This document shows positions 8,564 to 63,585 of a stretch of 64,000 nucleotides of DNA, one piece after another; the stretch's first letter is position 1, and each line of letters starts with the position of its first letter. Under the pieces are notes generated by a model, which had not been told where the DNA came from, did not search any database, and saw only the letters and a program-made list of their open reading frames with translations. Both the position numbers and the translations under genes were made by a program. The DNA is from Collybiopsis luxurians FD-317 M1 (lineage: Eukaryota > Basidiomycota > Agaricomycetes > Agaricales > Omphalotaceae). The stretch lies in NCBI GenBank assembly GCA_000827265.1, contig KN834758.1, positions 248,001-312,000 on the forward strand, read 5' to 3'.

Positions 8564-8571
8564 TGACGCGT
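8564..8571 (-). promoter_or_regulatory. candidate proteasome promoter element ACGCGTCA upstream of PI31
   Basis: On the PI31 coding strand the octamer ACGCGTCA lies at -33 to -40 from the ATG, inside the 82-bp gap to NSP1. The same octamer, in the same orientation and at nearly the same distance, precedes PRE3 and PRE10. It combines a CRE-like half (TGACG on the plus strand) with an MCB-like core (ACGCGT). The binding protein is unknown. Confidence 0.5.
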
Positions 8572-8613
8572 ATTACATTGACACATATACAACCTCGAAT
8601 ATCGATTACTTTT

Positions 8614-10632
8614 TTATCCACGGAAGCCTCTCGACTTGGATCCATTTCCGTTCAGACTTTGTCCCGACTCATTAACACGACGTTCCACCTCTGTGACCTT
8701 GCTTTCAATCTCGCGCACAGAACCATCAATCCATTGCAGACTGTCCAAATGACTGCTCAAGATTTGTGATATCTGTGTCATGGGATCTTCTTGTGTCTTC
8801 TCGCCGGAAGAGGGCATTGATAGGCCATTGACGGCATCAATCATTTGCGTTAAAGACCCAGACAGGTCATCGAGGTGGGTTTGGAGGTCTGTTGCTAGCA
8901 TGTAGCTGAAGTTACGAAGATTAGAATGAGACATGGCTGTTGAGCGACGGGCATAGCATACTTTTTATCTCGCTCAGTATCTGCTGGACCGGTATCCAAC
9001 GCACGAAGGCTTCCTCCTTGGCCACCAAAAATTTCTTCAGTCACTTTTTCATAAGCGTCAAGTGTAGCAGCCAGATCCTTTTGTTGTTGTTCGATGTGAT
9101 CCAGCGATTGGTCGACTTCAGCTTGTTCGCGCTCCGCTGCTTGTACATGGCTGTATAGAATGGCCAGCTAAGAAAGAATGAATGAGGGTAACACGATCCG
9201 CAAAATGGATTTGTTCGTACACTTTTCGAATTTTCGATAAGCGCCCTATCCCACATAGAGACCTCGGCTGCGAATCTATTGAACTCTTTAACATGTGTTT
9301 CGAGCTCGTTCGACCATTTGTTGACAATCTCTTCAATGGTTTTGCCTCGCAAAACTGAAGGCGGTTGAACCGCAACAGCGGGAGCTGTAGAGGATCCTAG
9401 AGCAGAAGTGCCTAACAAACAACCAAAAAGACGACAATGAATGAACAACATAGCTAAAGTAGCGGCATAGCTAACCTGGTCTGTCTCCAGGTTTTAAGAG
9501 AGCTGTGCCTGAAAAAAATAAATAAATAAGGATCACCAGGACCAATACAGATAGAAATGCTTACTTGCGGCACTATCCTTCTTATCCTCTGGTTTCGAGC
9601 CGAAAGGATTTCCAGTCCCCAAGGCTGAAGAAGTGGCTGCAGCAACAAACATCACAAAAAAGTCCACAGGAAGAAAGACGAAACTATACCTGGAGTCTTA
9701 TCATTATTTTCAGTAGGTTTTGCGCCAAAGAGGCCACTGCCTATTGCAAAGACACTTATGAGGATACGACACAATACTGAGATACAGACTGTATACCTGA
9801 AGTAGCTGTAGTGATAGTAGTGGGCGCAGCAGGAGCAGTGGTCGTAGGAGTGCCACCACCAAGAGAGAATGAAGCAGGTGTAGAAGCGGCAGCGGCTGGA
9901 GGGGTTGTTGCCAGGGGTTTTCCGAACAGTCCACCGCCGAAAAGCCCAGTTCCAGGCGTATTTGTAGACGCAGCAGCAGAGGCTGCTGTATTAGACGCCC
10001 CACCTTCCGCTGGTTTGGGGGTCGTACCAAACAGCCCGGTATTCGAAGTAGGAGTTGATGTACCTGAAAGCAAATTTCATTTTAATTGAGCAAACCGAAG
10101 CATTGAAGGGGGCGGTATACCAGTGCTGCTCGAAGCTGGGTTGTTAAAGACTAGAAACTTGATCAGTACTACGAATTAGTGCGGTAGAGAAAACCAACAG
10201 CTTGAAGTCGCAGGTTTTGGCGCGTCCTTGTTTGCCTGATCCGTCGGTTTTGGTAAAGAAAACGCGCCTCCTCCGAAAAGAGGGTTCATAGTGGAAGGTG
10301 TATTGCTGGAAGGAGCTGTAGGGGCACTTGTATTCGAATTTGAACCGCCAAATAAGCTGCCACTTGCAGGTGCTGTAGTGCCACTACCACCTCCAAATAA
10401 ACTGTTTCCGGATGAGGTATTCGGCGTTGAGCTGCCGCCAAATATCGAGTTTGCCGGTTTGTTGGCTGTAAGTTCGTTTACTGTCACGAACGGGTCAAAG
10501 GAAATGGTTCTGCGAACCTGTATTGCCGAAAAGATTAGAAGTTCCTGCGGTAGAACCTGCTCCTGTATTGCCGCCAAATAAGCTTCCTGCCCCAGTCTGC
10601 CCAGAATTTGCCGTGTTTGAGAAAAAACTCAT
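8614..10632 (-). CDS. NSP1: nucleoporin NSP1 (Nup62 homolog)
   Basis: The gene starts at ATG 10632 (MSFFSNTANSGQTGAG) and ends with TAA at 8614, with many short introns. The N-terminal two thirds carry FG-type repeats: SLFGG, SIFGG and GLFGGGLFGKP in a Ser/Thr/Asn/Pro-rich background. The C-terminal third is the Nsp1/Nup62 coiled-coil domain (IEEIVNKWSNELETHVKEF, WDRALIENS, then LQTHLDDLSGSLTQMIDAV and ending GSKSRGFRG). Nsp1 works in the central channel with Nup49/Nup57 and on the cytoplasmic face with Nup82/Nup159. The FG repeats bind transport receptors and the coiled coils anchor the protein. The NUP82/NUP88 gene begins at the right end of this same window. NSP1 diverges from the membrane-protein gene at 10751 across 118 bp. 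Confidence 0.92.
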
Positions 10633-10750
10633 TTGAAGACGAAGGAGAAGGTTGAGAACAAAACGCGTCTGAACAGACGCCGGTGCTGTTCATTCCATCA
10701 AGCGATTGAGATGCATCATTCACACTGGGCTTTGCCTTCATATCTCTCCG

Positions 10751-12450
10751 ATGGCCAGGTCGGATACTTTGGAAACTATTGCCATCCTCGAGGAGCAGAA
10801 AATCGATGAACTCGATAAATCGTCCACCTCTTCGCCAAATGAATTCAAGATGTTCATTCATTGTGATGGGTGCGTATACTACTCAAACGGTCAGATAGTT
10901 GTCGACCAGGATATCCGAAATCCAGAACTTCTCTCTGCGATTTTATTCGCTGCTTCAGACCTTGGTATTGACACCTGGGACGAAGATAATATGGAAGTTC
11001 AGCTGAACATGAACAAAAGAGGAGAATGCAATATGGCGCTGTTCATAAATCATACACATTGCATCGCTGGGCATACTTATGACGACGCTAGCAATAAGGC
11101 ATTCTTATCCATGGATCCAGTACGGCGTAAGTTCTCTTGATTTGCTGTATTCGATCGACTCACTGTTATACAGTGAACAGACGACGAAGACTATACTGGA
11201 ACTTCCTATGGACACACTCGGCACATGTTCCTTGCCCTACTCGAGCAATTCCAGATGCTTGTGATGCGCTTACTTGGTTCTATGCATGCCTAAATCTTTT
11301 CCAATATTCATTTCTCTGACATTTATCTTTAGACAGATAACCTGATTTCCGGGCCCAAAAGTGTCGTTCCCTTTTCAAAAGCTGAGTGCGAGGAGCTCTT
11401 GAGGCACGTAAAGGACTTTGAGGGTATGTGTAGTTGCCAGACAATAAGTTCAACATTGCACTCAAGACGTGTTCAGCGCCGTGTTATGCCAATTCAGCAG
11501 CCAAAGTTGCATTCCTTTCATGGTTGCTTCGTGAAATCTGCAGCTTCCGGAATGCTGAAACGTATGGCGAACTCCCTCGTAAAGAATTATCCGAAATGCA
11601 AAAAAATAAATTTCATCAGCCGAAGGCTGCTGTATCTACTCACCCCGCAGCCTTCCTCCGCCCTATAATACATCTCATTATGAACTTCATCTTCTTCGGT
11701 ATCCCACATTCCTATATGAGGCTTGTGAAGCAATCTTTCGAGTACCGAGGCCGATTGACTGGTATGCAGAGCCGATGGGAAGAATACATCGAACGTCTCG
11801 TAAGAGAGTATTCCCACTTTCTTCTGATAGTACGTCACAAAGTGGTCCCTTCTATTTCTTCTGCTCTATTGATATCCTCGAACATAGTCGACTGTGTTGC
11901 TTTCTGCTACCGTAGGCCTTTTGGCGGTCCCGGATATCTCGCCACTCGCTCAAGTAGCGGCGCTCGTATCCGCTCTAAGCTCACTGGGAAGTATCATTGT
12001 AGGCGTATTTGCTATATGGAGGCACCAAGCAAAATTTCGTACTATTGACTCGGTATGTGTTTATCTCTTGTTGGTACTCCTCTATAACCAGCTATCTAGT
12101 TCACGTACCTGCGCAACGCCCAACATAATCTTCTGGGATATCACGGGCACGCCATGCTGCTGAGTCTTCCCCCGGTATTGTTGGTGTGGGCCATCATCAC
12201 GTTCACTATCTCTACCGTGGCGTATGCGTTGGGCAGTTTGGGTCGCCGCGACACAGCCGATGATATCTCCATGGCTGTATTTCTAGTCATTTTTGTTTGC
12301 ATACTTGGAACGGTCTTAGCTGCATTATATACATTGTCGATGATATGGACCTTCAGCCATGCTGATTTTTGGTGGATACGTCTGAGAAGGAAGCTCAAGA
12401 AACTTTATTTACCATGGAAGTCGAAGCACAAAAACAGTTTTATGGTATAA
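10751..12450 (+). CDS. agaricomycete multi-span membrane protein of unknown function
   Basis: Starting at ATG 10751 (MARSDTLETIAILEEQ; an in-frame ATG also exists at 10706), about six exons can be joined to TAA 12448-12450. The N-terminal part is soluble, with a WW-like start (CDGCVYYSNGQIVVDQDI), a block NRRRLYWNFLWTHSAHVP and a conserved helix (FLSWLLREICSFRNAETYG). The C-terminal half carries YIERLVREYSHFLLI followed by three strongly hydrophobic segments (around 11895, 11960 and 12165-12350). I recognise this as a family I have met in many agaricomycetes, often in several copies per genome, with no established function. One intron (11284-11332) appears to use a GC donor. The stop lies 30 bp from the stop of the convergent ATPase gene. 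Confidence 0.75.
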
Positions 12451-12480
12451 CCAAGTAGACTCAGTATATATTTTGAATGA

Positions 12481-14382
12481 CTATTGTTTTGCATCGACCA
12501 CGCGAATGGATGCCCCCCCATCCACGGTAACTCTTCTGCGCGTTTTTAGGATGAGGTAGCGACGACCAATTTTGTCAACGCGGTTTTGTGTACCTGGGAA
12601 GATAGCTAGACCAGATGGAGCAAGGACAATGGCTTCTCCAGTCTAATCGTTCATAAATAAGCCACTATCCGAGGGTTGGAAACAAGAGACCCACTTGAAG
12701 CTTGACAACTCGGTCAAAGGCGTCGCTATCCGAAAAGTCCGCTGTAACATGCTTCTCTAAGTGCAACCACCATGAAGGGGACGAAAATCTATGCAATATG
12801 GTGACGGTGCAGAGATCAAGCAAGACTGGGTCAACCACGGTTGGTTCTGTGGTAACTTCGCTTTGATACTGGAAGGCGTGTTCGATAGAAAAAGATCACT
12901 CACCCTGCGTGCTGATAATCACACGCATCGCTAGGTGCCGCTGTTGTCTGGTGAGACTCAAAAGAGCTTTCGTGAGTCCAGATGCATTTCTAGTTGATGA
13001 AAGATACTACCGAGTTCGTAAGGACACGGAATCAGAAATTTAGAAGAAATCCATACTTTATGAGCCTCGTCGACAACCAGGACCTTCCCGGTATCGATGG
13101 GCGCGCGCACAAACAAACGGGTGAGCACCTCGAAAAGCCCACAGGCAGAGGCAGGATCAATGAAGGGATCGGAGAGGTCAATGATTGTAAGCTCCCCGGA
13201 AACAAAACGATTTGTGCGTTCAGTAGATGCCTCAAACCCATTTTTCTTGGTCTTCTTGCCAGCCACAAACGAGCTGAGCAAGGTCAGTCGTTGCTCGAGG
13301 CTCGATGTTTGAGCTGGATTGAATGTTTGCTTCTTCTGTTCGAGCTCCCTCAAGAAAGCCCGATATGAGAAAGCCTCTCCGAGATCTCGAAGGATTGACT
13401 AGTAGCCGAATCAGTACTGAGATAGTGGCCACCCAAAATACTGACCAGAACGATCTGAATATACAATGGAGCATTGTCGGAAGACCCTACTGCCATCAAA
13501 GACAAGAAAGCCTGAGCATCGAGCTCGGATTCACTCAAAAACAGCGGCTCTACAGTGACATTTCCCCTCTGCGTAAGGGGCGCATAAATAGTCTTCATAG
13601 TCTTTATCGAGGAGCCAGAAACATAAACCCTCACTGCCGGAGGCGTAATCGAGGGATCGTCTGTTACACCAATCCACGCAGCCTCGCATGGCCCGGAACT
13701 AGAGCCCCCTTCCGAGAAGTGAAGGACCATGCCGCAAAGCGGTTTCTTCAGTTTCCCCAGCGACGACGCATCGGAGATGAACATGTTTTCTAACATTACG
13801 GAGACGGTATGCGACTTTCCGGAACCTTGAGGCTAATGTCGAACTTTGCGATGTTAGTGACAGTAAACCCACGAACCTTGCACTCCGCATACAATGGCCG
13901 ACAAAGGAGCATTCTATAATTATAATGTTGCTCGATAATCCGGCCAGAACCAATGCAGTAGCTTTAAATAATTTTCCTTACGGTGTTCAAATAAACGCGT
14001 GGATCGTCAAAAACATGAATGTCCTTCTTGAAGCTGATGAGGAACATCATAAATTCCAAGTCGTCGAAATGACCAGGTCAAACTTACTTGCACGAGATCG
14101 CGCCTCCGAGAACACCGTACTGCGTGACATTCGACCCACAAAAAATGTAGGCATCCCTTGTCATGATGGGAGCATCGAGTAACTCATGCATTTCCATCAA
14201 GATGGTCTGTCCGTTGCTTTGATTAGTGACCAAGAGCTGAAATTCTTCATTCGAATCCAAGTCATTCTAGGGAGCATCAAGTTTACTTATGTCTGGACGA
14301 CTACTTACCAGAAAATATTTCTTACCGAATTAGAATTGCAGCTGAAGGTCGAAAAATTATGGGAAGCCTGGTTGGAAGTCAT
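12481..14382 (-). CDS. HerA/FtsK-like P-loop ATPase, agaricomycete family
   Basis: The gene runs from ATG 14382 (MTSNQASHNFSTF) to TAG 12481 in about nine exons. Exon joining restores a Walker A motif (GVQGSGKSH) that is split from the preceding PLSAIVCG block by a short intron region, a Walker B motif (KVLVVDEAHK), then YLSSTRNASGLTKALLSLT and a Q-ending sensor-like strand (RQQRHLAMRVIISTQ). After that come LLDLCTVTILHRFSSPSWW and a C-terminal TGEAIVLAPSGL. The order Walker A, DEAH-type Walker B, Arg-rich helix and ISTQ is what I expect of HerA/FtsK-clade ATPases, which pump or translocate DNA or proteins. The N-terminus (VTQYGVLGGAISC) is unlike HerA's HAS barrel as far as I can see. The family is conserved among mushrooms but uncharacterised. 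The cellular role is unknown. Confidence 0.75.
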
Positions 14383-14867
14383 CGAGAACCGGTATGCAAG
14401 AGGGAGGAAGAACGTTCACGGCTGCTTCGCAAGGTGGACCATTTTATACAGGTGAATACTACCGGCGCCTACAACATTAGCATTCTAGGTTCAGGTATAT
14501 ACATATATATACTGCATGCGATTGCGCCGAGTTCCATTTTTGAGCATGAAGGTCGATCGTTATCGTAAATTGTCAAGCGGAGTTTTCTGACGCCCACAGA
14601 TGTGTACGTACTACCTAGTCTTTCACTCAACTTCCAGTCAATTTAAGTTGCGAAAAACTTTTGAAGATGGGCTAAAGGTTACGTGTTTGTACGGTACAAT
14701 CGCATCTGTTTGTGACTGCGCAGCTTCGTGTGTTGAAGTAAGGATGTACGGAGGCGATGGAGTTTATTTGACAGACTTAGCTCTGCGGACGAGCGCCAAA
14801 CGCTAATTCTGGGCGCTTATATAGCCGATCATTTTTCTCCCTTCATTCAACTTCCTTTTTCATATTC
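14383..14867. other. intergenic region, divergent promoters
   Basis: This is the gap between the divergent HerA-like ATPase and RRP8 genes. Small open frames are present (for example 14600-14806) but none has a plausible protein composition or a recognisable family. A pyrimidine-rich tract (tttttctcccttcattcaac, 14831-14850) just before 14868 looks like the RRP8 core promoter. Confidence 0.5.
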
Positions 14868-16286
14868 ATGCCTCTTTTCGATGTACCAGGTTGGTCTGTG
14901 CCCGCAGACCCTGTTCTAGAGTCTGGGTCACGTAAGCGCAAACGACCACCGAGCGAAAGCTCTGACAGTAGAGTTCATTCCGCTGAAATAAATCTCGAAA
15001 AACTCGTTAGAAAGTTAACTGGGAAACGGGATGAGGACAGTACAAATAATTCTGATCCCAAAGATTCCAAGTCACGACGACAAAGGAAGAAGAAGAAGCA
15101 GGAGCATCATCAACCTACGCTAGATAATGATGACAAAAAGAAAAGCATCTCGCTGCCAATGCCACTGATGACTGCGTCGGAAAGGGCAGCCAAAAAAGCC
15201 AAGCGAAGCCATGATAATGGTTCTCAATTGTCAGAAACGAGCTTGATCAAGCATCTGGAACCGACAAACGAGGATGATAGATCTTCGTCTGGCTTGACAA
15301 GCATGCAGAAAGGGATGAAACAAAAGCTGGAGGGCGCGAGATTCCGGTAAGCTTTCTCACTCTCCGCTTTGTACCAATGTAATGTGTATTCTATCTGTTC
15401 AGTCTGCTTAACCAAACCCTATACGAAAGTAGTAGTGAAGATGCTCAGAGGATGATGCAAGACGATTCAACCGTTTATGCCGATGTAAATATGACCCTAC
15501 TTTCTCAGACTTGTGGCTGACTAAAACTGCAGTACCACAGCGGTTTCCGACAGCAAGTCCAGTCGTGGCCCACCAATCCCGTCGAGCACTACATCGAGAG
15601 ACTTTCAGAATATCCAGCAAAAACGGTCGTGGCAGATTTGGGTTGTGGCGACGCAGCCATCGCACGTGTTCTGCTTCCCAAAGGGATATCAGTCTTGTCT
15701 TTCGATTTGGTGTCGAATAACCCTTACGTAGTTGCAGCCGATATTTGCGGAACGTTACCTCTGCCTGGCTCGGAGGGAACAGAAAGTTCAACATCAGACG
15801 GCGAAGCTCACATCGTGGACGTCGTTGTATTTTCTTTAAGTTTAATGAGTAAGAATTGGCCTCAATCGATACGCGAAGCTTGGAGGATCCTGAAACCTAG
15901 GTACGATGTCGCGCCTCTCTTCCATGAAAGTCAGTCCTGACTCGACCTTTGAAGCGGAGAACTTAAGATAGCTGAAGTGACTAGCCGCTTCCTCGATCTA
16001 GGCAATTTTGTTTCACTCATATCGTCCATGGGTTTCAAACTCAAGTTCAAAGTGCGTTATTTCTTGCAACTGTGTCCACAGAAGCAAATGTATAGTTCAT
16101 AGGACGAACGAAACACCCATTTTACTCTCTTTGAGTTCAAGAAAGTCCCTCGGAAATTCAAGAGCGAAAAGGAATGGGGTGCTATACTTTCACAAGGAAA
16201 TGTTCTGAAGCCCTGTGAATATAAACGTCGTTGTATGTCAAGTCACTTTAAATTTTTGCATGTACCCTTACAATATTACTACAGGA
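14868..16286 (+). CDS. RRP8: 25S rRNA adenine-N1 methyltransferase RRP8
   Basis: Six exons (14868-15346, 15403-15484, 15533-15900, 15955-16051, 16103-16232, 16285-16286) give 385 residues. The N-terminal half is basic, Lys/Ser-rich and nucleolar-like. The methyltransferase part starts at LLNQTLYESSSEDAQ and shows the Rrp8 signatures WPTNPVEHYIERL, VVADLGCGDAAIA (SAM-binding loop), VLSFDLVS, VVVFSLSLMSKNW, REAWRILKP and FTLFEFKK. Rrp8 makes the m1A mark in helix 25.1 of 25S rRNA in the nucleolus and is needed for early pre-rRNA cleavage. The final coding exon is only two nucleotides: the last sense codons CGT CGT are followed by T, the intron, and then GA, so the stop codon is created by splicing. 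The gene converges on FUR1 with 16 bp between coding ends. Confidence 0.93.
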
Positions 16287-16302
16287 GTGTAAAGGGGTAT
16301 AT

Positions 16303-17355
16303 TCAAGGTCGGATAGTGTTAAAGAGGCGATCTCCCTGCAAAGAAAGAGATATCAGGTCTAGAAAACGCTCATTGCTCGTGCCGCGTACCGTATCACCCA
16401 AACCTGGGCTGATAAGGCCTTCCCTTGTTAAGATTTTATCAATACCTGCAACCCATATCTAGTTATCGTCATATTCAGGATCATGACTTGTGATGATATA
16501 ACATATATGTGACAAACCTCTAGTCCGGGGTGGCTTTTTTGAATATTCTTCAAACCATCTTGGGACGCAAGGACGCATAACAACTTGATTTTCTCCACTA
16601 CATGAAAATATTAGAACGTTTGGTATAAATTCAGGTTCACAGTCTACCTGGAATTCCCCAATCTATGATCATTGTTAGAGCAGCGAGCGCAGTTCCTCCA
16701 GTAGCGATCAGAGGATCCAAGAGATAGACCATATCAACGGGAGGAGATGCGGGTAACTTGGAGTAGTCTGCAAAATGGGTGGTCTCGTCATTTGCATTCT
16801 GGATATTCACTTACATTCAACTGGTTGAAGGGTTACTTTCTCCCTGAAAAGTCCAAGATGATACACGGGTGCGGATCTGAGGGACATATCAGGAAATAAG
16901 ACGGAGACCAATTCTCAGACGACCCACGGGAAGAGCGTTAGCTGCGGGTGAAGAGATATGAATATAGATGATGCGGATTAATGCAAAACAACTTACAAGA
17001 GCATCGGTCATTCCAAGACCAGCACGTAAGATGGGTGTTAAACCTATACGAGGCTTGATCGTGGTACCCTCGAAGGGTGCGATTGGAGTTTTCTTGGAAA
17101 TCGAGTGTCAGAGAATACGACTAAAAAGTTAATGCAGTGATTACTCCATCGAAAGTATCTTCTTCCAAATCTCTTGAAGCTTCCAGTCCTAGAATGAGTG
17201 CAATATGATTGATTCCCTGCAGAATGGATCAGCGATGATCGTAAGATATATTTCGTGCTGACCTCTCTAAATTCTTTAGGAGTGGTTGTGCTGAGCCTAA
17301 GTTTGGATAGCTCGGCATTGACGATGGGATGTGAAAGCTTGTGTATATTAGCCAT
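16303..17355 (-). CDS. FUR1: uracil phosphoribosyltransferase
   Basis: From ATG 17355 (MANIHKLSHPIVNAELSKLR) several exons join to TGA 16303. Diagnostic stretches are LILGLEASRDLEEDTFD, KTPIAPFEGTTIKPRIGL, the helix LRAGLGMTDAL, LLDPLIATGGTALAAL (the PRPP-binding loop), then VAGIDKILTREGLISPGLGD and the terminal GDRLFNTI. The enzyme converts uracil and PRPP to UMP in pyrimidine salvage, in the cytosol. An in-frame upstream ATG near 17469 would add about 38 residues; I prefer 17355 because the protein then begins at the usual family start. The gene diverges from MET10 across 185 bp and its 3' end lies 16 bp from RRP8. Confidence 0.92.
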
Positions 17356-17540
17356 GAGTGAAGTTGAAGAACCGTTAGTCGTCGGGACGGCCCGAGATTG
17401 GCTCCGTTCCGTTCGGGGCACGTGGAATATTGCCCTTTTAGGCTGCTCAGCACGCCACTTTCCTCTCATCTTTGCTAATTTTAAGAATACATAGACAAAA
17501 TGTCTAAATTTACATCCTCTGCTAATTCTCGAGCTCAACC

Positions 17541-20500: not shown

Positions 20501-20837
20501 CCAATCTCAGGAATACTTGTACGGAGAAGAGATCGAGGCGTTCATACTTGACGGAATTATCACTCGTGCTGGACTAGCTTTCTCTCGTGATGGACCCCCT
20601 GGCGTCAAGAAAGTGTATATTCAAAATAAAATGCTGGAGGATGCACAGGATTTGGCTAGAATGCTCTTACATGAGGAAGGTGTGTTCTACCTTTGTGGGC
20701 CGACGTGGCCTGTCCCGGATGTCTACGAGGCGTTATGTGGGGCATTGGAGAAGTACCAGGGTATGGCAAAAGAGAGTGCTGGAGAGTATCTAGAGGGATT
20801 GAAAGAGGAAGAACGATACGTCCTTGAGGTGTATTAG
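17541..20837 (+). CDS. MET10: sulfite reductase [NADPH] flavoprotein (alpha) subunit
   Basis: Three exons (17541-20148, 20204-20295, 20355-20837) give 1060 residues, the expected size for fungal Met10. The N-terminal part has the pyruvate-oxidoreductase-like fold typical of fungal Met10 (LAEQVGFGTFTKIW, AFTSPQGLSLMAPALSYL, SVNVIRPWDESALRALLP). The C-terminal third is the FAD/NADPH reductase module (RHYSIASAQSV, GSPRYGQCTRYLAGL, ILAGLGTGAAPFRAFLQ for NADPH binding, YYYFGSRHQSQEYL, ending in an aromatic residue as in CPR-type reductases). It passes electrons from NADPH via FAD to the siroheme subunit Met5, which reduces sulfite to sulfide for methionine and cysteine synthesis. The first exon is a single open frame of 2.6 kb. 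No frame damage was seen. Confidence 0.93.
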
Positions 20838-52265: not shown

Positions 52266-54071
52266 ATGTCGGATATTTACTCGACGCTATCCTTGTCTCC
52301 CAAAAAGAAGCGTGTAGCAGCAAATTTCGTCGCGGAAACCGTTACACCAAAGAAATTGAGACTAGCGTTCGTGTTCTAGCTACTATAGTGATCTCTCGCC
52401 TAACCTTCTCACTGGCAAAATGTTCATAGGCCACCGACTCCGCCCGCGACACGCTCGCGTAAAGAGACTTCTGAATCCGAAACCTTACCTCCTCAGTTGA
52501 CGCGTCTCCAGTCCATTCAAACTTCATTACAACAAGCGTTATCCCATGCTCTTGCTTCATGTGCCGCGTCTCCCTCATCTGATACCGGGATTCTTCCCAA
52601 TGTTGTTAATCATATCTCGCTGAGCCAATATGCTGGGCTCTCAACCAACTTTACGGTCCAAGATTTACGACGACTGTGCTGGCTTTGGGAGTGGGATGGA
52701 AAGACCATAAAGGATACAGACATGGCCGAAGATGATGACAATCCTTTTCTGGAAGCTTCCACTCCTCCGTCAAAGGACTGGACCAGGGGATCTATGGGTT
52801 TTGTCATCAGTTCAGCCACTCAATTCTCGAAGGTCGATGGTAAACGCGTGCCAGCTTACGGTATTGGCATCGAAGTTGAGATTGACTTGGATAAAGATAT
52901 GGGGGCGGGGATGGCCGCGGTTGCCCGCTGGACCGCGGCAACAGAATCTCGTCGTGCTCTTTTTGGCGAAAAGTTATACGCCTGGGCCAAGGTGTGTTGA
53001 ACCAGGCTTTCAAGCGAATTTCACATCACTCAAGGCACACTTCAGATGCATGCTAAACTTCCAGCTGTCCCGATGATTCCCCTGGCTCACCTTCCTGCTC
53101 TATCTTCTCCAACAAAACCTTCATCTTTAACACGTGTGTTTGCTTCCATGTCTCCGAAATCATCCACTTCCACCAAAGATCCATTGCCTGCCGCACCTCC
53201 CTCACCCAGTCGTTCGATTTCAAAGTCCCCTGTCAAACGAGATCTTGCTGCTCCTCGTTCTGTTCATTCTATTTCTTCAAGTAAGAGTACAATTCTATTC
53301 CCTTCTACCCCTTCATCCTCGCGCGCGGAGCGTACACCACGCATTATCAATCTTCGGACCCCGACCTCTTCCAAGGTTTCCACCGAGGATCTACCTTCCC
53401 AACCTATGACCCCCCGAGGGCGCGATCCTGCCTCTGTCTTGCAAACCCCGACCACATCTCGTAGGCAAGCCCTGTATGATCGTATCCGGGAAAGGTCATT
53501 GTCTGCTTCACCAAGCAAGTCTCAGCGCAATGCAGACGTCCCTGGTAGCAAGCTTACGAAAGACCAATTGCTGAAGCTTGGTCAAGAAGAGACGCGGCGC
53601 CGCTGTCTTTTAGGACGCCTTGGAGGTGTAGCGGAAAGCGTGTGGATGTAAGTGGTACCAGAATCTTTGTTTACTACAGTGCTTATTGATTCGCCCAGGC
53701 TCTTCAATTCACCCAATGGGTCGACCTCGTCTCCATCACGTAAACGCCGGACGCTTCCTTTAGCTGAGGTAGCCTCTGCGATTGTGAAATCATCCCCGAT
53801 TCCCATATCCACAGCTGAGGCTAATGAATCCTTGGAGCTTCTAATTACACTCTGTCCTTTCTTTCTGAAACAACAAACTATAGGTGGTGAAGAATGGCTC
53901 GAAATGCCTGCCCCTCCTGGTAATCCTTCTTCTCCATCCAAGCGGTCTCCTAGTAAAGCAGATAGTGCACAAGAGCTGGCGACAAGGAGCCCGAAGCAGG
54001 TGAAGAGAGAAGCTGGTGGTCTGAGAATGATTCGCGAAATTATCCGACGAGAATTGGAACTGCAGGATTAG
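52266..54071 (+). CDS. CDT1: DNA replication licensing factor CDT1
   Basis: ATG 52266 opens a short exon ([20 protein letters not shown]) that splices, restoring [15 protein letters not shown]. The middle part is the geminin-binding-like winged-helix domain ([46 protein letters not shown]). A Ser/Pro-rich basic stretch full of TP/SP sites (possible CDK sites) leads to the C-terminal winged-helix ([42 protein letters not shown]). Cdt1 loads the MCM2-7 helicase with ORC and Cdc6 in G1. The splicing joints were read by eye. The family is divergent in fungi, but the two separate domains agree. A long inverted repeat lies just upstream of the start. Confidence 0.82.
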
Positions 54072-54254
54072 ATTTCATTACCATCCATTCTTCATTGCAT
54101 GCATGCTTGATTATATTCTGCGTGTTTTCACTAGTACCTGTTGTTATTATTGATATGTAGATCTTTTCTCGACAATGAATACTTTTTATGCTGGTCAAAT
54201 GTAAGCTATTTGATAAATGTTGATTGAGCTATTTCGAACCTGTCGTGCCTGAGG

Positions 54255-55232
54255 TCATGATAGTATTTCGTTCCATAGGACATCCAATGAATGAAGTATG
54301 GATAGATTGCTTCTTCCAGCCGCCACCCTCAAGGTGGCGTTTTTATACTTTCGAACCAGCCATGACCCCATTCCAGCGTAAGCATGCCCACCATTGCCGT
54401 TGGAAGTCATGACGGTTACTGAAGGTCTGGAATGTTCGCCGTCGAGTGCATCAGGGCAGAAACCTCCCCAGCCAGAATGATAGATCGGTGGTAATTCCAG
54501 AAACCCCTGCCACGACGAGGCAACGCTGTAGACAGCGTTTCTTGCAACTTCCCTTTCGTACTGCCCGTCTGCTATTCCGTTATCTTCTTTCCATTGCACT
54601 ACCTCTTCCGTTTCGCCTTCCCCAACAGGTACGGATAGGACAGAACCTCGGACGAAACTTTCGGCATTACTTTCGCTCAGTAATCTTCCCTCTATGGCAA
54701 ATTTGGCCAGGAGTGCGGAAAAATTGAAAGGCAAAAGGCGTGATGGAGGACCAATAAGGAAATAGCTTTGCCATGAAAGCTCCCTCCAGTAGCCCTTGTG
54801 ACAATGAGGAGGGGAAAAAGGGTCGACCAGAACGAGATGAGTTATACAGCGGCCAGCTGGAAAAGAAGTGTAAGCCGCGCCGTAGAGGATTTGGGCTGGG
54901 ACAGATCCGAAGGAATGAGCACAGATGATGAGCTTTAGTCTGGAATGGTCGGAATGGAGATGATTCAACAACGCAGAAATGTCACTGATGATGGTGGAAG
55001 CGTATTGCGTAGGGTCAGGGACCGGAGACGACAGGCCCCAGCCGGGTAAAGATGGACAAACGAGATGCACCCTTCTCGACTGGAGAACGAGTGAAAGACG
55101 AGAAGCATCACCAACGCTGAAAGCGCCGTGGAGGTAGAGTATGACAGTCGTACTGGAGGTGTTTCCGTTATCTGCGTATGCCAGGGTGCGGCCGTCGGGG
55201 AGGACGAGACGTTTGTCCTGGACATAAATCAT
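54255..55232 (-). CDS. alpha/beta hydrolase paralog, likely catalytically inactive
   Basis: One intronless frame of 325 residues (MIYVQDKRLVLPDGRTLAYA) aligns along its full length with the next gene (55765-56745): the oxyanion region ILYLHGAFSVG against ILFFHGLFGVG, PSLPGWGLSSPVPD against PTVPGFGNSSPRPK, and ILYGAAYTSFPAGR against MIYGAPFDVFPHGR. The nucleophile elbow is AHSFG (the Ser is kept, but the first Gly of GxSxG is lost). At the usual catalytic Asp and His, the paralog's TEDELGSG and GGHIASL are replaced by SNGNGGHAYAG and GRSNLSI, so both are missing. The protein probably lacks esterase activity. A single nucleotide error would not explain both losses. Confidence 0.8.
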   Translation of the reverse strand: MIYVQDKRLVLPDGRTLAYADNGNTSSTTVILYLHGAFSVGDASRLSLVLQSRRVHLVCPSLPGWGLSSPVPDPTQYASTIISDISALLNHLHSDHSRLKLIICAHSFGSVPAQILYGAAYTSFPAGRCITHLVLVDPFSPPHCHKGYWRELSWQSYFLIGPPSRLLPFNFSALLAKFAIEGRLLSESNAESFVRGSVLSVPVGEGETEEVVQWKEDNGIADGQYEREVARNAVYSVASSWQGFLELPPIYHSGWGGFCPDALDGEHSRPSVTVMTSNGNGGHAYAGMGSWLVRKYKNATLRVAAGRSNLSILHSLDVLWNEILS

Positions 55233-55764
55233 GGAGAATGGGAACGAAAAGGCAAGATACCAGGAAAGTGGTGAGACCCGGATGGTTCCTACACGTCAAA
55301 TCAGGAAGTCATGATTTTAGAGGGCCCGATAGGTCAAACTATGAATCAGAATGGTGAACGTGGGTCCGTCCCCGCTCATTCAAGATGTGAATTGAGCAGA
55401 TCGCTGTACAGTTCCAAGTTTAGTTAGCCTGGGCTAATGTACTCCCTTAAATCACAAAAGGAAACTTGAACTTTGAACCTGTCATGAGATCCCATGTTGA
55501 TGAATTAGATTGCGAAAAAGAAGTATACTCAATTGTTCGAAAAGCATACCACGTCCTTCGTCCCAGGGTTTCTTGTAGTGGAAAGGAGATTTAAGATTCC
55601 ATACTGAGAAAGCTCCGGCGCAACAGCGGCTGTGAAGGCGCGCGACAGCCGTCATTCCGAGTCAAATGTTCCTCAGTCTTCAAGTTTAACTTTAAGGATT
55701 CAATAGCTATGGACAGCAAATTTCACGCGAACTACTGTACTTGTGTATAAACACGCGCGGTCGC
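55233..55764. other. intergenic region between tandem hydrolase genes
   Basis: About 0.53 kb containing the promoter of the left hydrolase and the 3' end of the right one. No gene was recognised. Confidence 0.45.
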
Positions 55765-56745
55765 TCATCGAGTACGGCGTATGAAATCATCCCAAATCGC
55801 GTCCATTTCGTACAAGGACGCGATGTGACCACCTTTAATCCATTTTAGCTCCGATTTCCTGTAATTATCCGCCAGCCACTCTGCCATTCCGGAACCCAGT
55901 TCATCTTCCGTTGAAGGGACAATGAGAATCGGGTGATCCGCGTGAATCTCGTCTAGCTGATCTGGAACGAACCCCCAATCCTCGTGAAGCACGTCACTGC
56001 ATTCTATGAACCCTACCCACGTTTTAGATACACTTGCCACCGCGTTCTTCGCCATTTTCCGTTCCCATTCTCCTTCCCGAAGGCCTTCCTTCTCCCTCCA
56101 ATCTGCAAAAGCGGCCTTTTCTTCTCCATCCATCTTATTGAATAAAAATCCATTGAGCATCTGTTCCGCCTTTTCCACGGAACGCAGCTTTGGCGCTAAC
56201 ATTGAGGAAATCATGCGCGGAATCAGACGGAAAGGGACGTATTGCGAAGGAGGTCCGACACTGATGTAGTTTTGCCATGTCATGCATGCGGTATAGTCTT
56301 TATGACATCTGAATGGTGAGAACGGGGCGAGCAGAATGCAGCCGACAATCTTCCGTCCATGAGGGAACACATCGAAGGGGGCTCCATAGATCATTTGTGC
56401 AGGAACGGTCCCATACGAACCGCCGGAGACATAGATAGAGAGGTTTGGATCATTAGGATGGAGATGGTCAATGAGTTGGCCTATATCCAGAGCGATATTC
56501 ACAGCAAAGGAAAGACGCTTAGGTCGAGGGGATGAGTTCCCAAATCCTGGAACAGTTGGAGCCACAAAGTGGACGTCCAATTCGCGCAGGGTGGCGGACA
56601 AACGATCGGCTCTCCCTACACCGAACAGTCCGTGAAAGAAGAGAATCATTGTTGAACTTGATGGATTGCCATTCTCGCAGTATGCGAGCTGACGGCCATC
56701 CCGTAGAGGTAATATCTTTTCATCTGTGAAGGAAGTTGACGACAT
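55765..56745 (-). CDS. alpha/beta hydrolase, intact catalytic triad
   Basis: A single-exon 326-residue protein (MSSTSFTDEKILPLRDGRQL). Features: oxyanion motif FFHGLFGVG, nucleophile elbow GGSYG (in IYVSGGSYGTVPAQMIYG), acid Asp in PSTEDELGSG, and His in KGGHIASLY. This matches the typical alpha/beta hydrolase order; substrates of such enzymes range from esters to lactones and epoxides, so none is assigned. No signal peptide is seen, so it is probably cytosolic. It sits head-to-tail with a diverged copy (54255-55232). Confidence 0.88.
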   Translation of the reverse strand: MSSTSFTDEKILPLRDGRQLAYCENGNPSSSTMILFFHGLFGVGRADRLSATLRELDVHFVAPTVPGFGNSSPRPKRLSFAVNIALDIGQLIDHLHPNDPNLSIYVSGGSYGTVPAQMIYGAPFDVFPHGRKIVGCILLAPFSPFRCHKDYTACMTWQNYISVGPPSQYVPFRLIPRMISSMLAPKLRSVEKAEQMLNGFLFNKMDGEEKAAFADWREKEGLREGEWERKMAKNAVASVSKTWVGFIECSDVLHEDWGFVPDQLDEIHADHPILIVPSTEDELGSGMAEWLADNYRKSELKWIKGGHIASLYEMDAIWDDFIRRTR

Positions 56746-56949
56746 TGGTTTGGCGGAGAAGCTGCAGGAAACACCCTTCTTTTATCTAGTACACAGAGGC
56801 CAAAGAATTGATATCCGCAGTTGACAGCTGCTTGACAAGCTACTAGTCTACACTGTATTATAAACCCCTGGCAAAGTCCACAACCTATTCTTTACATTGT
56901 ATTGAGAGACACGCAGCTCTCAGCGAAAAGAAAACCGTAGTTGGAGCAG

Positions 56950-58570
56950 TCAGCGCAGCAGGGTCTGAGTCAGGGTGTGCCGCAGAGCGATCCTAGCCTG
57001 CTGCTCAAACTCTATACAGTTAATGACCTTCTCCTGCCTGCGACTAGTCTCCGCAGCAAAAACTGTCATATGGCTCTTCAATACCTCACCCACATCAGTA
57101 CCCAATAAGTTCTGATTTCCTGTCCTTACAGCCTCGACAAATGTCCTCATCAAACCCAAATCGCCTCCGCCATGCCCTCCTCCCTCGTTCACCGGACAAA
57201 AAGTTTGTGTTTTCTTTGTTCTGAAATCAGTGACCGTATACGTGTTCATGTTTCCAATGATCTCCCCGTGTGTAAAATGCATGCGCAACTGTCGGTCGCA
57301 GATAGCGCTGGTGAAGGCAGCCATGGTAAAAGACGCTGTACAACCATTTTCAAACTGGAGATTGACCACCTGGTTGTCGCAAACGTCATTCTTGCTTTCA
57401 TAGACACATTGACCATATGGACCTTGCATCAACGCAGCGGTGATATTTTCAATATCTGGAATACCATCTACGATGGTTTCTGCTGGCCAGCCAGTGTTGC
57501 CACGAGAGACAGGGTCAAGGTAAACTAAGCAGGCTCAGCGACAAGAAGACGAGATTAATTGAATCCGCTTACTTCGTTTAGCACTATACGGGCACTCCCT
57601 TTCCATTGGACAGTCGAAACAGCGTGTTGCATCTCCTGCATCTATTGGTTTGGATTTATGGTTGAAATGTCGAAGTGAACCAAATGAGGATACTTTGACT
57701 GGTGGCGAAGGGCCCATCCAATGGCATATTATGTCGATGTCACTTAAGTGGATGAATATACAGAAGCGGATTCAAATCGCGTCGCATTGATCGCCTTTTT
57801 GTAGTTGACTCACTGGCAGCATTTAGTCATTAACGCGAAAGAACTTTCTTTCTCGCGCCCCCAATTTCCTCGAACATATGAGTGTGCAAAATGGTAATAA
57901 CCGACAGGCTCGACTTGCACTATATTAACCAATTGACCAAGAGTACCGGACTTGACGATTTTGGTTATTTCTTGGCTATACGGTGAATAACGCATAACTA
58001 CCAGATGCGATGAGCATCTTTGCATTGTAAATGAATGGTCATGTTACCGTGCCCCATCCCAAAGATAATTCCAGCCTTCTTTATGGCTTCCTCTATCTTG
58101 ATACAGTCTTCCAAAGTAGTAGCCATTGGCTTTTCGCAAAGAATATGGTAGCCTTGCTCCGCAAAAGCTAAGGCGACCTCAACATGCATATGATCTTGCA
58201 CAGCGATGACGACGGCGTCTGCAAGTCGCTTGCCGACGGTTTTGATTGTATCTGCTGAGGCAGCATGCAACTCTTGCCATGTGTTGAACACAAGAGTCTC
58301 GTCGACTTTGTGTTGTTCTGCATATAGTTTCCTAGTTTGAGGACGAGGCTCTGCGATGGCTACGACTTTGCAAGCATCCGATTTGAGAGCATATTTTCCA
58401 TAGGCCTGTATATAGATGGGTTATATACCTTCTGGAAAGAAAGATCCAGATACCTTTCCTCGCTGCCCACAGCCGATAACAATGACAGTGACAGGCTCAT
58501 GAATCGATTCTGAGGCCATTTCTTTGTGTTTGTTGTTCTTTCGAAGAAGGTTCTTGATAGACAAGGCCAT
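56950..58570 (-). CDS. Gfo/Idh/MocA family oxidoreductase (Cys-motif subgroup)
   Basis: ATG 58570 (MALSIKNLLRKNNKHKEMAS; the second in-frame ATG is 58519) begins about seven exons ending TGA 56950. The N-terminal Rossmann fold has VIVIGCGQRG, VVIAVQDHMHVEVALAFAEQ and the catalytic ILCEKPMATT. Then come GMGHVMRYSPYS and a motif around MTKCCHDIDIICHWM (intron-spanning), whose Asp/His pattern is the active-site block of this subgroup. A short Cys pattern (CFDCPMERECPYSAKR) resembles a structural Cys cluster seen in bacterial relatives of this subgroup. The C-terminal part has GHGGGDLGLMRTFVEAV. The substrate is unknown; such proteins act on sugars or polyols with NAD(P). The bacterial flavour of this subgroup suggests ancient horizontal transfer, but that needs a tree. 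Confidence 0.82.
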
Positions 58571-58651
58571 TATATATGGAAAAGGGACAAGATTTGACCA
58601 TTATGGTAAAGACTGAGGTATTAGACGCTCAGGTACTGCGCCGTTGCTTCC

Positions 58652-60163
58652 ATGCCTCGCCTTATACCCCGTCTCATCCGCAGACTCGAAGCTTCACCCA
58701 CGACTACATCGTTCGACCCATTCACCCTCGATAATATCAGATTTCGCGGCAAGTCTCTCCGCAAACCTCTCCCCGCAGTCCCATCTTTCCATCCCTCGCA
58801 ATATACGCAGTCTCTGTTGCTCTCACCGAACAATCCAGTAACCTCTTCAAGAAACTACATTCGACACAAATCTTTACCTCCCCGTGTAAACCTTCCCAGA
58901 CATGCAAAGCCTAGAAAAAATACCTACGATCGTCCTAGAACCATGACGGAAGAGGAGAGGCGCTGGTGGGCCAGCCCATACTGTATGTCCGTATTTCTTT
59001 CATATCCTTCACTGTCCACACTATAGTTAGAAAGTGCGAATGCTCTCAACGCCTATACGTTCATGTATGCAGACCGAACGCGTCCTTCCATCCGGTAATT
59101 CCTGCAATTTTGATTTTCTTCTCTGGCTCATGCACATTTCCAGCATTTCTCATCCGTCTGGGTATATTCCAAGCTCCTTCGGACAAGGAACTGGGCCCGT
59201 TCTCCCTCAATGCAACTCCTCCCGCAGTCCTGATGCCAGATGGTCTCGAACACCCTAAATTTAGAGGCAGAAAGTCTGGCAAAGCAGGTTATTTTCTCTG
59301 TTGGAAAGACCTTATCGAGCCAATGAATGAATCTGGTAGATCTTCCCCCCCTTTTATCGTCATGCTCTCTGAACTTAAGGATCCCAGGTACGTTCAAACG
59401 CACGACTTGGAATATCCGCATTCCATCATCGTTGCAGGCTCAGATACGTCATCTCCTCCGGCTACGAGTGTTGCAGGAATTACGGCTGGTCGTTGACGCG
59501 CTCAGATATCGGCCTTTGTCCCTTGCTAACAACACACTTGTCCGGAAACTAACCAGAACGGAGTGGAAAAACTTCAAATCCAGTGGAGTTATCCCCGTAA
59601 AGAACGCGATGGCAGTTATAGTCGTTCCTCCTTTGAATCGCAATCCGGAGACAAAAGAGCGACCAAAAGGTTCCATGTCTCCCTTTCCACCTCCCCAAGA
59701 TCTTGCTGCTTCCCCTCCTCAATTTAAGCATGCTCCTCTGCCAATGTGTACCCTTCATCCCACCTCCGATCACGAAGAGGAACTCCCCAAAGACGTACAT
59801 CTTTCCCAATCCCGGGTTCCTTTCTATAATGGGGTATACCTCTTTCCAAATCCGGAGCAACGAGCGATGCTTCGATCTTTACTCAATCGTATACTCGCAA
59901 TTTCTCGTCGTCAAAATTTAAAAAAATCAAATTCTGCGATCCCTGGAGGAGAGGACGACGACAGCGAAGTAGATAAGCATGCCAGCCATGCGTATGTGTT
60001 AATGTCAGACGAACGTACCGCTCTTACTGCCGACATGGCGGGTGTGGGCGTTGCTCTATGGAGAATTCCCATGTTTGAAGGGATGGGATGGGAAGACAAG
60101 ACGCCGTGGATTAAACGATACAAGTATCATTCAATATGGGGAGATGAAAAGTATGAATACTGA
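58652..60163 (+). CDS. conserved hypothetical protein, probably mitochondrial
   Basis: About four exons run from ATG 58652 (MPRLIPRLIRRLEASPTTTS) to TGA 60161-60163. The first 20 residues are basic with no acid before the Glu at 13 and could be a mitochondrial presequence. Conserved blocks are MTEEERRWWASPYLRML, IRSCMQTERVLPSAFLIRL, HLLRLRVLQELRLVVDAL, SGVIPVKNAMAVIVVPPLNR, and a C-terminal Trp/Tyr-rich end (WEDKTPWIKRYKYHSIWG). I know it as an agaricomycete conserved family, possibly mitochondrial, but no function is known to me. It shares an 81-bp divergent promoter with the oxidoreductase at 56950-58570. The WWASPYLRM block is restored by splicing with the acceptor at about 59035. Confidence 0.65.
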
Positions 60164-60236
60164 ATGTCTCTTAATGTGTAGCATCTTAATCTATCGTAGA
60201 AACTTTTCGATCGTTTAGTGTAGTAGAACAGAACAA

Positions 60237-61233
60237 TTAAACTTCTACTGCCATCGGAGCGACATCTGAAACCGCAAAGACGGCAGGCGGCGGTTTTTTG
60301 GTCACTTCACCAAGAACTTCTTTGCCTTCCCAGAACCTTGGCAATTGGTCCCCCGGTATGAATTTCCTCTCGACACCGTCCCCTGTGATTACGCACATAC
60401 GGATAGTTCCCCCAGATGAACCGTCTCGAGACATGGCCAGGGCCAGAGCTGCAGCACGAATGTGTTAAGTATAAAACTAGGAAGCACTCGATCACTTCAA
60501 ACGTACTATTCTTCACAAAGTTGACAGTCTCGTCCTTCCCCCAGCCTTCCTGATAGGTGGCATCGCAGTAACCGTAGACGTACGTAGATCCAGAACCTAT
60601 AGCAGATTTGTAAATTTCAAGGCAATTCGCTCGTATACGACGCCATACCTCCAATGGCCCACGGTTGCCGGAAGAGACCGCCACCAAGAGGGATGTTGTA
60701 CACACTGGGACCTTGCTTCTTATCCCAGCCAGCAACGATGATTCCAGCGCTTAGCTGGTCCTTGTTCTGGTAGCACATCTTTTCCATGATAGCTGCAGCT
60801 GTGAGCACTGAGGGTGCATCCCCCATGACTTGTCTATTGATGATCATTAGGGATCGATAACAGGACGCAGGGAAGAACGAACGCACGCCTGCATTTGCAG
60901 ATAGTAGTGCCCGAAATCGGCGATGGCTTGAGTATCTGCCGCAGAACCTGACCGACAGCAGTATATACGGTCATGAAGATAAGTCAGTTTATCTGTAACT
61001 CGATTGGCCTGCAGAGGGTCAGCCCAGGTCATTAATCGGAAAAGCTGGAGACGTACGATGTAGCTTCCTGTTGTTGTGCGACTGTCTGCACCAATAACGA
61101 CGCCTCCTTCGAATTGTACGGCCATAATTGAGGTCTAGGAAAATGCTGAATGGACAAATCAAACGATTTTCTTTGCACATACACCGAGGTTAACCTCGCC
61201 CTGCTTGAGTCTGTTCATGTCGATATGGTCCAT
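60237..61233 (-). CDS. PRE3: 20S proteasome subunit beta-1 (caspase-like)
   Basis: From ATG 61233 ([17 protein letters not shown]), exons join to a stop at 60237. The propeptide ends LG and mature Thr1 starts [19 protein letters not shown], with the canonical [34 protein letters not shown] and [19 protein letters not shown]. Thr1 is the catalytic nucleophile; the beta-1 subunit cleaves after acidic residues. The first intron falls exactly between the codons for Gly(-1) and Thr(+1), so autocatalytic cleavage happens at an exon junction. The promoter, shared with RPN12, holds the element ACGCGTCA at -34 to -41. Confidence 0.94.
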
Positions 61234-61317
61234 GGTCAAGTGTTGAGCGCTTATTTGACCGAGGGGTGACGCGTCTCAGCAACACACGCGTCGCCTGCCT
61301 TTTTCGTCATCACCACC
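61234..61317. promoter_or_regulatory. 84-bp bidirectional promoter of PRE3 and RPN12 with ACGCGTCA element
   Basis: Only 84 bp separate the two start codons. 61267-61274 reads TGACGCGT on the plus strand (ACGCGTCA on the PRE3 strand). A second MCB-like ACGCGT lies at 61286-61291. Co-expression of a core and a lid subunit is expected from this arrangement. The same element in the same orientation and distance occurs before PI31 and PRE10. Confidence 0.6.
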
Positions 61318-62360
61318 ATGGCTCAATCCCAGCTCAAGTCCCAATATAACGAACTTCAACGATCCTTCGAAGCAAATTCACCGAAATGTAGTATAATCTT
61401 GGCTCAGCTAAAGGTTCGTCTGTAATATTAGCATTACACGCGGTATACTAATATTGCATAGATTGGCCTTATTGAAAATGGTCTTTTAACACCCCAAGGC
61501 GAACACAATCTAGACGATTTGATTGTTGCTCGTGTGTACTCAAACCATTTTTATTAGCGAAATACTTAGTCTTCTTTCAGGCGACATACTCGAAATCGGT
61601 GCCATCTGGAGTATCCGAGCACGAGATGTCCCTTCCTTCGACCGATACTTTTCCCAGCTACAAACTTTTTACACAGACTACAGGTATGACCCAATATACT
61701 GATACTGAAAAGTTCTACTTACGATTTATCCCAGTTCCGTCCTTCCGCCATCCAAGAACGAATACCCAATCCGAGGCCTTAATCTCATCCGTCTCCTCAC
61801 ACAAAATCGCATAGCCGACTTCCACACTACTCTCGAAAGCCTACCGATACCTGCGGATGCTATTGCCGAGAATCCGTATATTAGCCATCCAGTCAATTTG
61901 GAACAGTGGTTGATGGAAGGGAGCTACAGCAAAGTATGGAATGCAAGAGAAAGAGCGCCGGTGCAGGAGTACAAGTTCTTCGTAGACAGTCTGATGGGTA
62001 CTATTCGGTACGCGTGCTGATTATTGCACTTAGTCTGATCGTTGACGGTGAGAATGTAGGAACGAAATTGCAAGCTGCGAAGAAGCAGCGTATGAAAGTC
62101 TGCCATTGAAAGACGCACTGACATTGCTTTTCTTCAATAATCAATCCGAGCTGTTGAAATTTGCTCAGGAGGTAGGTGTCCGGCTCTCATTCCTCCAGAA
62201 CTCATGTTGATAATCCTTCACGTAGCGGGGGTGGCAGGTAGACTTGTCAGCGCAGACTATAACATTCGCAAAGAAGGGTGAAGAGCAGATCGAAATTCCA
62301 AAGCAGAAACTCATTTCCTCATCCTTGGCATATGCTAGGGAGCTCGAGCGGATTGTATAG
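61318..62360 (+). CDS. RPN12: 26S proteasome regulatory lid subunit RPN12
   Basis: ATG 61318 (MAQSQLKSQYNELQRSFEAN) begins a gene of about seven exons ending TAG 62358-62360. Landmarks: LKIGLIENGLLTPQGEHNLD, DILEIGAIWSIRARDVPSFD, RYFSQLQTFYTDYSSVLPPS, IRGLNLIRLLTQNRIADFHT, EYKFFVDSLMGTIR, the helical block SCEEAAYESLPLKDALTLL and the PCI end RGWQVDLSAQTITFAKKG. Rpn12 is one of the last lid subunits to be added during lid assembly. The divergent promoter with PRE3 suggests coordinated expression. The next gene, PRE10, converges with 83 bp between the stops. Confidence 0.94.
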
Positions 62361-62443
62361 AATATACAGATTTTCCAATTGTTCTTCATACTTTGATGGA
62401 AAGCAATTAATTGAGACAAAAAGTACAACGCGAAATGTGTTCT

Positions 62444-63484
62444 CTATTCGAAATCCTCAAGGGCCGCCTTCGCTTTTTGCTCTGCCTCGGCGAGTAGGTC
62501 TTTTGGTACAGGGACGTGAAGGCCGTTCGTTTCATCGCCAATCCATGACATCTCAAGCTCGAAATCCTTCTCTTTGGAATCATCGTGAACCAGATAGATA
62601 CTAGAAATGATGATTAGATAGATATCTGCGAAGAAGAGTTTACAAACATTCGAGCGGCCTCGAGTACAGCCTGTCGTGTTGAAAGTTCAGACAGTTTGAG
62701 TTTCTCCAGCTCAGTCTTCGCAAGCTGGCGACCTTTACCAACAGCTGCGCCGTGATAACCCTGAAGAGAGAGATTTCAATGGACGGAAATGCAAAACAAT
62801 ATGGTAACTTACAAAGAACACACCACTCGGTTCTATGACGAACAGTGACGGACCATCCTGGTCGACCCCTCCAATAATAGTGCTGATTCCAAACGGTCGG
62901 ACAGAAGAATAGAGGGTATATACTTGAACGTATGAGCTCATTCGGTCGGCAATGTACTACGAGATCCTTAGAATCAATCCAGACTTTAAGTGCTCCAAGA
63001 TAGTACCTTGACGGGGGCTGGTGATCTAAAGTTATCGCGGAAGTTGGACGATTCGTCGATCGCTCTATTGGCAAGGTGACGACCATCCGCCAGCAGACCT
63101 GCAGTAGCCTAGGAACAGATTCAGAGAAAAGCAAATAGAAAAGAATCAAACCCCACGCACCAAACCGATGTGCCTATCCAGAGTCTGTATTCTTCGATTG
63201 GCATCGGGAATCAGAAGCTTGGAATGCACTAGTTTCTCCACTGCTAGCACGATTCCATCCTTTACTCGCAAACCTATGGCAGTTCTACAGAGATATGAGA
63301 AGGACTACAAGCTGCGTAGTGAGAGATCTCACCCAGAGTTTTCTACTGCTTTATTGGCATATTCGACCTGAGGCAGCGTTAACTAAGATAATACGGATCC
63401 TAATAACGAGCGCACCTGGAATATACGGCCATCAGGAGAGTAGGTACTTGCTGAGAGATCGTATCCTGTACCGATAGAGGTCAT
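62444..63484 (-). CDS. PRE10: 20S proteasome subunit alpha-7
   Basis: The gene runs from ATG 63484 ([19 protein letters not shown]) to a stop at 62444 in about seven exons. Exon joins restore [96 protein letters not shown] and the acidic tail. This matches the alpha-7 (C8/PSMA3) type. Alpha subunits form the outer gate rings of the 20S core and dock regulators. The promoter, shared with NUP82, holds the ACGCGTCA element at -30 to -37. Confidence 0.94.
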
Positions 63485-63585
63485 GATGAAAGTAGAGAAA
63501 GAGTTAAGAGAAGTGACGCGTCCTTCGCACTTGCGCGTTCACTCTCAGCTGCACGTGCCACTGTCAATTTCGGTCGCGTACCGCC
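63485..63585. promoter_or_regulatory. 101-bp bidirectional promoter of PRE10 and NUP82 with ACGCGTCA element
   Basis: 63514-63521 reads TGACGCGT on the plus strand (ACGCGTCA facing PRE10). An E-box-like CACGTG lies at 63552-63557. It shares the ten-base string GTGACGCGTC with the PRE3/RPN12 promoter. Confidence 0.55.

Follow-up and report, generated by a model that had tools for sequence, protein, structure and literature searches.

Eukaryotes must produce about 33 proteasome subunits in a coordinated way, and the DNA word and the factor that serve this end differ between the clades described to date. In animals, the proteasome genes are controlled by NRF1/NFE2L1 through antioxidant-response elements. 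For fungi, the portions of Gasch et al. (2004, PMC526180) available to us place the Rpn4 site, known as the proteasome-associated control element (PACE), in hemiascomycetes and not in the other fungi examined, and give another word, GGAGCT, for the proteasome genes of euascomycetes, with no detectable binding by Neurospora Rpn4; the accessible parts of two further papers (PMC10512320, PMC11134681) treat Rpn4 solely in other connections. A literature search, which reached few subscription papers, found no description of a proteasome-gene system or element in basidiomycetes. Here we describe a CGCG-centred word ahead of the proteasome genes of the mushroom Collybiopsis luxurians FD-317 M1, which came to attention as the octamer ACGCGTCA in a stretch of 64,000 nucleotides. 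This whole stretch, called the window below, is C10:248001-312000 of a genome of 64.26 Mb in 200 contigs (C10 being KN834758.1). The protein kinase A regulatory subunit encoded in it has 82% full-length identity to its Collybiopsis confluens counterpart, with Lentinula, Gymnopus and Rhodocollybia as the following hits, which fits an agaric close to Omphalotaceae and bears out the basidiomycete premise of the initial annotation.

We regard the word as a candidate site of one sequence-specific factor, with the proteasome genes forming a single regulon and the site playing a role like that of Rpn4 and PACE (probability about 0.85). This view rests on the presence of the word, its specificity relative to controls, its position, its flanks and its prediction in held-out genes. 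The likeness to PACE, in the available text of PMC526180, is that a single short word precedes most proteasome genes and is regarded as the site of one regulator; GGAGCT is alike in being a proteasome-gene word particular to one clade and not read by Rpn4. The sequences differ, however. Among 36 genes of the proteasome system (32 core genes plus PI31, Ump1, CDC48 and UFD1), the Rpn4 word GGTGGCAA occurs within 200 bp of the start in none, and GGAGCT is at background (3 of 36 promoters, against 2 of 25 controls). The animal system is likewise a proteasome regulon under one factor, but it uses another word and another factor family, and TGACTCA is at background here. The PACE, GGAGCT, cAMP response element (CRE) and AP-1 words were all rejected as the proteasome element, being absent or at background in the 36 promoters. 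The element described here would be the basidiomycete counterpart of PACE, and would add a third fungal case in which an essential regulon has been rewired.

A shared word ahead of the proteasome genes

The word ACGCGT or its stretched form ACGCGCGT was found within 150 bp of the ATG in 31 of 32 core proteasome genes and in only 2 of 27 control starts (Fisher P 2.8e-13). The initial annotation had suggested an analogous basidiomycete element from three promoters of the window; these counts support the idea, as other proteasome genes do not lack the word and unrelated starts do not carry it equally. Of the 32 core genes, 28 have ACGCGT itself; with both strands counted, 18 have the exact octamer and all 32 have CGCGTC, the last as against 2 of the 27 controls. 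Fifteen of these controls are first-ATG open frames of the window and not verified gene starts. For three genes the upstream stretch was shorter than 150 bp (UFD1, 79; CSN2, 73; AMSH, 24), and the set of 25 controls, used for word comparisons and pyrimidine content, is the set of 27 minus CSN2 and AMSH.

When the first 29 core genes were compared with 149,867 background bases, ACGCGT was present in 26 promoters of 150 bp where 0.9 would be expected, ACGCGCGT in 8 (0.12 expected) and the octamer, with both strands counted, in 17 (0.17 expected). CGCGTC was present in 29 of 29, and ACGCGTC was the top-ranked of all 7-mers in these promoters. Moreover, four genes looked up after the motif was fixed, Rpn2, Rpn10, Rpn13 and the chaperone gene Ump1, all have the core ACGCGT/ACGCGCGT, with sites starting at -40 in Rpn2 (ACGCGTAA), -42 in Rpn13 (ACGCGCGTCG), -31 in Ump1 (ACGCGTAA) and -52 in Rpn10 (ACGCGTCA). 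In the alpha5 (PUP2) promoter the site is ACGCGCGTC at -60; a copy of TGACGCGT in the same gene sits in coding sequence and was not counted, and another TGACGCGT, near the PCI match at C1:490111, was set aside as lying within the CSN2 coding sequence.

In the window, ACGCGTCA occurs four times, always on the minus strand and at the positions that the initial annotation had given, and a re-scan returned the same distances to the three ATGs. Shuffled windows have 1.44 copies on average and 4 of 100 shuffles reach at least four, so the octamer count by itself is unremarkable, and it is position and gene identity that carry weight. These shuffles are what a coincidence confined to the window could appeal to, but beyond the window stand the 31 of 32 core genes and the 4 of 4 held-out genes; with only 2 of 27 controls carrying the word, chance is refuted, and its probability is practically nil. 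The features of the window are as follows.

8564..8571, minus strand: ACGCGTCA element of PI31, at -40 to -33 of the ATG at 8531
7371..8531, minus strand: PI31 proteasome regulator gene, ATG at 8531, with PI31_Prot_N and PI31_Prot_C matches (7371 is where the last open frame that was read stops, and is not confirmed as the end of the gene)
52498..52505, minus strand: fourth ACGCGTCA copy, within an open frame (frame at 52404), not counted as an element
60635..61233, minus strand: PRE3 (20S beta1), from the start codon as far as the Proteasome-family match (C10:308635-309134) extends
61267..61274, minus strand: ACGCGTCA element of PRE3, at -41 to -34 of the ATG at 61233
61286..61293, plus strand: ACGCGTCG element facing RPN12, 32 bp ahead of the ATG at 61318
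61318..62020, plus strand: RPN12, from the start codon to roughly where the frame matching CSN8_PSD8_EIF3K ends
62813..63484, minus strand: PRE10 (20S alpha7), from the start codon as far as the Proteasome-family match (C10:310813-311283) extends
63514..63521, minus strand: ACGCGTCA element of PRE10, at -37 to -30 of the ATG at 63484

The ranges of PRE3, RPN12 and PRE10 stop at the end of the match or frame and not at the true 3' end, and the exact subunits of PRE3 and PRE10, both of which match the Proteasome family, were assigned by eye. The fourth octamer copy is indeed inside an open frame; the label CDT1 for that frame is the initial annotation's own. The copy of ACGCGTCG was not on the earlier list and is the second in the PRE3/RPN12 promoter; thus this divergent pair has two sites, one facing each gene, and the PRE3 element, seen from RPN12, is on the opposite strand at about -51 to -44. 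Between 60635 and 63484 three proteasome genes stand side by side in about 2.9 kb, with PRE3 and RPN12 divergent and RPN12 and PRE10 convergent.

Form, position and genome-wide distribution of the site

The proteasome word is looser than the exact octamer and can be written, when oriented, as [TG]ACGCGTC[AG] or as ACGCGCGT. Of the distinct ACGCGT sites of the proteasome genes, 29 of 37 fit [TG]ACGCGTC, as against 7 of 32 background copies, and AACGCGT is avoided (5 of 37, against 15 of 32 in the background). In 35 oriented sites, where ACGCGT and the following C are invariant by the selection of sites, the next base is A in 18, G in 9, T in 5 and C in 3.

The site is closely tied to the start codon. 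In 35 of the 36 genes the centre of the ATG-proximal site lies 20 to 68 bp upstream of the ATG, with a median of 41. Counting the PRE3/RPN12 sites once for each of the two genes, there are 49 site-counts in the 3,579 bases from -100 to -1 and 3 in the 15,480 bases from -600 to -101. In yeasts PACE sits further from the ATG, whereas here all but 3 of 52 site-counts in 600 bp fall in the last 100 bp. Pyrimidine content is 0.70 from the site to the ATG and 0.50 on its far side. With the site restricted to the 100 bp before the ATG and a pyrimidine-rich stretch running from it to the start codon, a core-promoter location just ahead of the transcription start is probable. A second common element was sought, and none was found among AGCGC (14 of 36 promoters, against 8 of 25 controls), TATAWA (3 of 36, against 2 of 25), CCAAT (13 of 36, against 9 of 25) and CACGTG (6 of 36, against 4 of 25).

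Oriented by its C flank, the site is forward in 15 of the 36 genes, reverse in 7, symmetric in 10 and present both ways in 1; of the remaining three, beta7 and Ump1 have no C flank and beta6 has no site. Therefore the single distance and single orientation that the initial annotation had described hold for the three genes of the window but not over the 36, in which distance and orientation vary and the last base is loose. The use of both orientations also bears on whether the word acts as RNA, in the 5' leader, by setting translation or mRNA stability. The site is near enough to the ATG to be located in a leader, but an RNA element should hold one orientation, and the divergent PRE3/RPN12 promoter has sites in common; an RNA element is thus disfavoured and seems scarcely probable, and a DNA-bound factor is favoured.

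In the 64 Mb there are 34 places with the composite pattern of ACGCGTC, 21 to 51 bases and CAYCATG, and 18 with its reversed control. Eleven of the 34 places (10 genes) are proteasome genes and one more is UFD1. Twenty of the 23 places other than these eleven were fetched, those left out being C12:961172, C88:65392 and C119:85231. Pfam searches with ten sequences from nine fetched loci matched UFD1, RPA1 (Rep-A_N), DASH Ask1, UPF0203 and a stretch of glutamate synthase, and five of the ten sequences had no Pfam match. This distribution can be set against the view that the word is a general core-promoter or start-site element and not proteasome-specific. Such an element would account for the short fixed distance to the ATG and for the pyrimidine tract downstream, and 2 of 27 controls do carry the word. 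However, 25 of 27 controls are without it and the composite pattern is found in so few places that a general element is extremely unlikely.

The Cdc48-Ufd1 system supplies the proteasome, and it seems to share the proteasome tag. CDC48 was recovered independently, as an AAA gene, and carries ACGCGCGTCG at -72; UFD1 gives no independent support, because it was picked by the motif.

Several observations weigh against a single proteasome regulon read through this site. The octamer as such is not over-represented, since it occurs 1443 times genome-wide and its reversed word 1371 times. In the held-out genes the score drops with stricter forms of the word, to 3 of 4 for CGCGTC, 2 of 4 for ACGCGTC and 1 of 4 for the octamer, and Ump1 is without the C flank. 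The beta6 gene is the sole miss and has only CGCGTC, at -98 and -76. The core is also present in two controls, at -62 in an FtsH-like AAA protease and at -77 in an open frame of the window. Controls are themselves mildly pyrimidine-rich before the ATG (0.58, as against 0.65 in proteasome genes); in controls the content is 58% at -45 to -1 and 52% at -95 to -50. Start codons were set by hand and all data come from a single species. Finally, the Rpn9 duplicate has no site, because the upstream likeness of the two copies starts just downstream of the element.

The Rpn9 copies, C35:522297 and C35:533186 (loci L071 and L069), are about 11 kb apart and 85 to 90% alike in their main aligned blocks. 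The control protease (L032, C1:1323288) has a presequence-like N-terminus, as judged by eye, with TGACGCGT as the word at -62, and it may be part of the same regulon.

Candidate factors for the site

The factor types named in the initial annotation were bZIP and MBF-like, and the first of these finds little room. A bZIP factor would read a CRE-like or AP-1-like half-site (TGACG), of which GTCA is the invariant part. Indeed, ACGCGTCA contains CGTCA, and the octamer is present in 18 of 32 genes. But GTCA as part of the octamer is missing in the other 14, none of the 36 promoters has TGACGTCA, and TGACTCA is found in 2 of the 36, as against 1 of 25 controls. A bZIP factor is very unlikely, because the base after ACGCGTC varies. 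An MBF/APSES-like factor may still be the reader.

The core of the MluI cell-cycle box (MCB) is ACGCGT. The word could therefore be an ordinary MCB, bound by MBF (Mbp1-Swi6), with the proteasome genes belonging to the G1/S set. It shares the same six-base core, and two genes with the composite pattern, RPA1 and DASH Ask1, look related to the cell cycle, although both were picked by the motif. However, the gene set, the flanks and the position differ. In six MCM genes, neither ACGCGT nor ACGCGCGT was found within 150 bp of the start (there is a CGCGTC in MCM7, at about -132), and the proteasome sites shun the AACGCGT form that the RPA1 and Ask1 sites carry. As the MBF targets of this fungus may not include MCM genes, the MCM result no more than weakens this explanation; overall we consider an ordinary MCB unlikely. 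At the two replication or mitosis loci, L091 (RPA1) and L083 (Ask1), AACGCGTCC lies about 40 bp ahead of the ATG. These may be genuine MCB sites; their A flank sets them apart from the proteasome form.

Returning to a dedicated proteasome factor, we propose that one protein binds both [TG]ACGCGTC[AG] and ACGCGCGT, that once bound it would activate transcription of the proteasome genes, and that proteasome shortage would act through the site. APSES winged helices grip CGCG between A and T, and APSES proteins favour CGCG cores. The factor may thus grip the CGCG core, perhaps with a winged helix of the APSES/MBF type, and this predicted grip between A and T would explain why ACGCGT and ACGCGCGT both serve. 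That an APSES-type factor reads CGCG is a guess of moderate weight. More tentatively still, and with the odds somewhat against it, mushrooms and perhaps all Basidiomycota might use a proteasome master factor of their own, of neither the Rpn4 nor the NRF type, which reads a CGCG-centred core-promoter site; in its most daring form this would be an APSES factor that came down from the MBF cell-cycle line and was recruited to protein turnover along with Cdc48-Ufd1. Since the exact site is given and its position is strict in nearly all subunit genes, the factor should be directly findable.

Gene collection and start codons

The core genes sampled genome-wide are 32 of about 33, Sem1 not having been looked for. 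The 14 genes with PF00227 matches were taken to be those of the core particle. TIGR01242 matched the six ATPases amid other AAA genes; PF01399 and PF01398 gave Rpn3, 5, 6, 7, 9, 8 and 11, plus COP9, eIF3 and AMSH-type genes; PF17781 gave Rpn1, and RPN12 and PI31 come from the window. Identities were read from translations, with a Pfam check for Rpn2, 3, 5, 7, 9, 10, 12 and PI31, where the family alone cannot part Rpn5, Rpn7, Rpn10 and Rpn12 from their relatives, and a PDB sequence search for Rpn6, Rpt6, Rpt4 and Rpt1. Rpt2, Rpt3, Rpt5, Rpn8, Rpn11 and the single 20S subunits were named by eye, as were CDC48, CSN1, CSN2, CSN5 and most MCM numbers.

The Rpn9 duplicate at C35:533186, the CSN5 copy at C9:177517 and the AAA and PCI loci without fixed starts were set aside before counting. 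MCM2 (L103) and MCM7 (L106), whose starts were read later, were kept out of the 27 controls. CSN5 at C9:147146 and its similar second copy at C9:177517 are about 30 kb apart. In alpha6, beta3, Rpt2, Ump1, MCM2 and alpha3 the first exon appears, by eye, to consist of the ATG alone, with an intron following at once; the donor of these start-codon-only exons is GT, but GC in alpha3.

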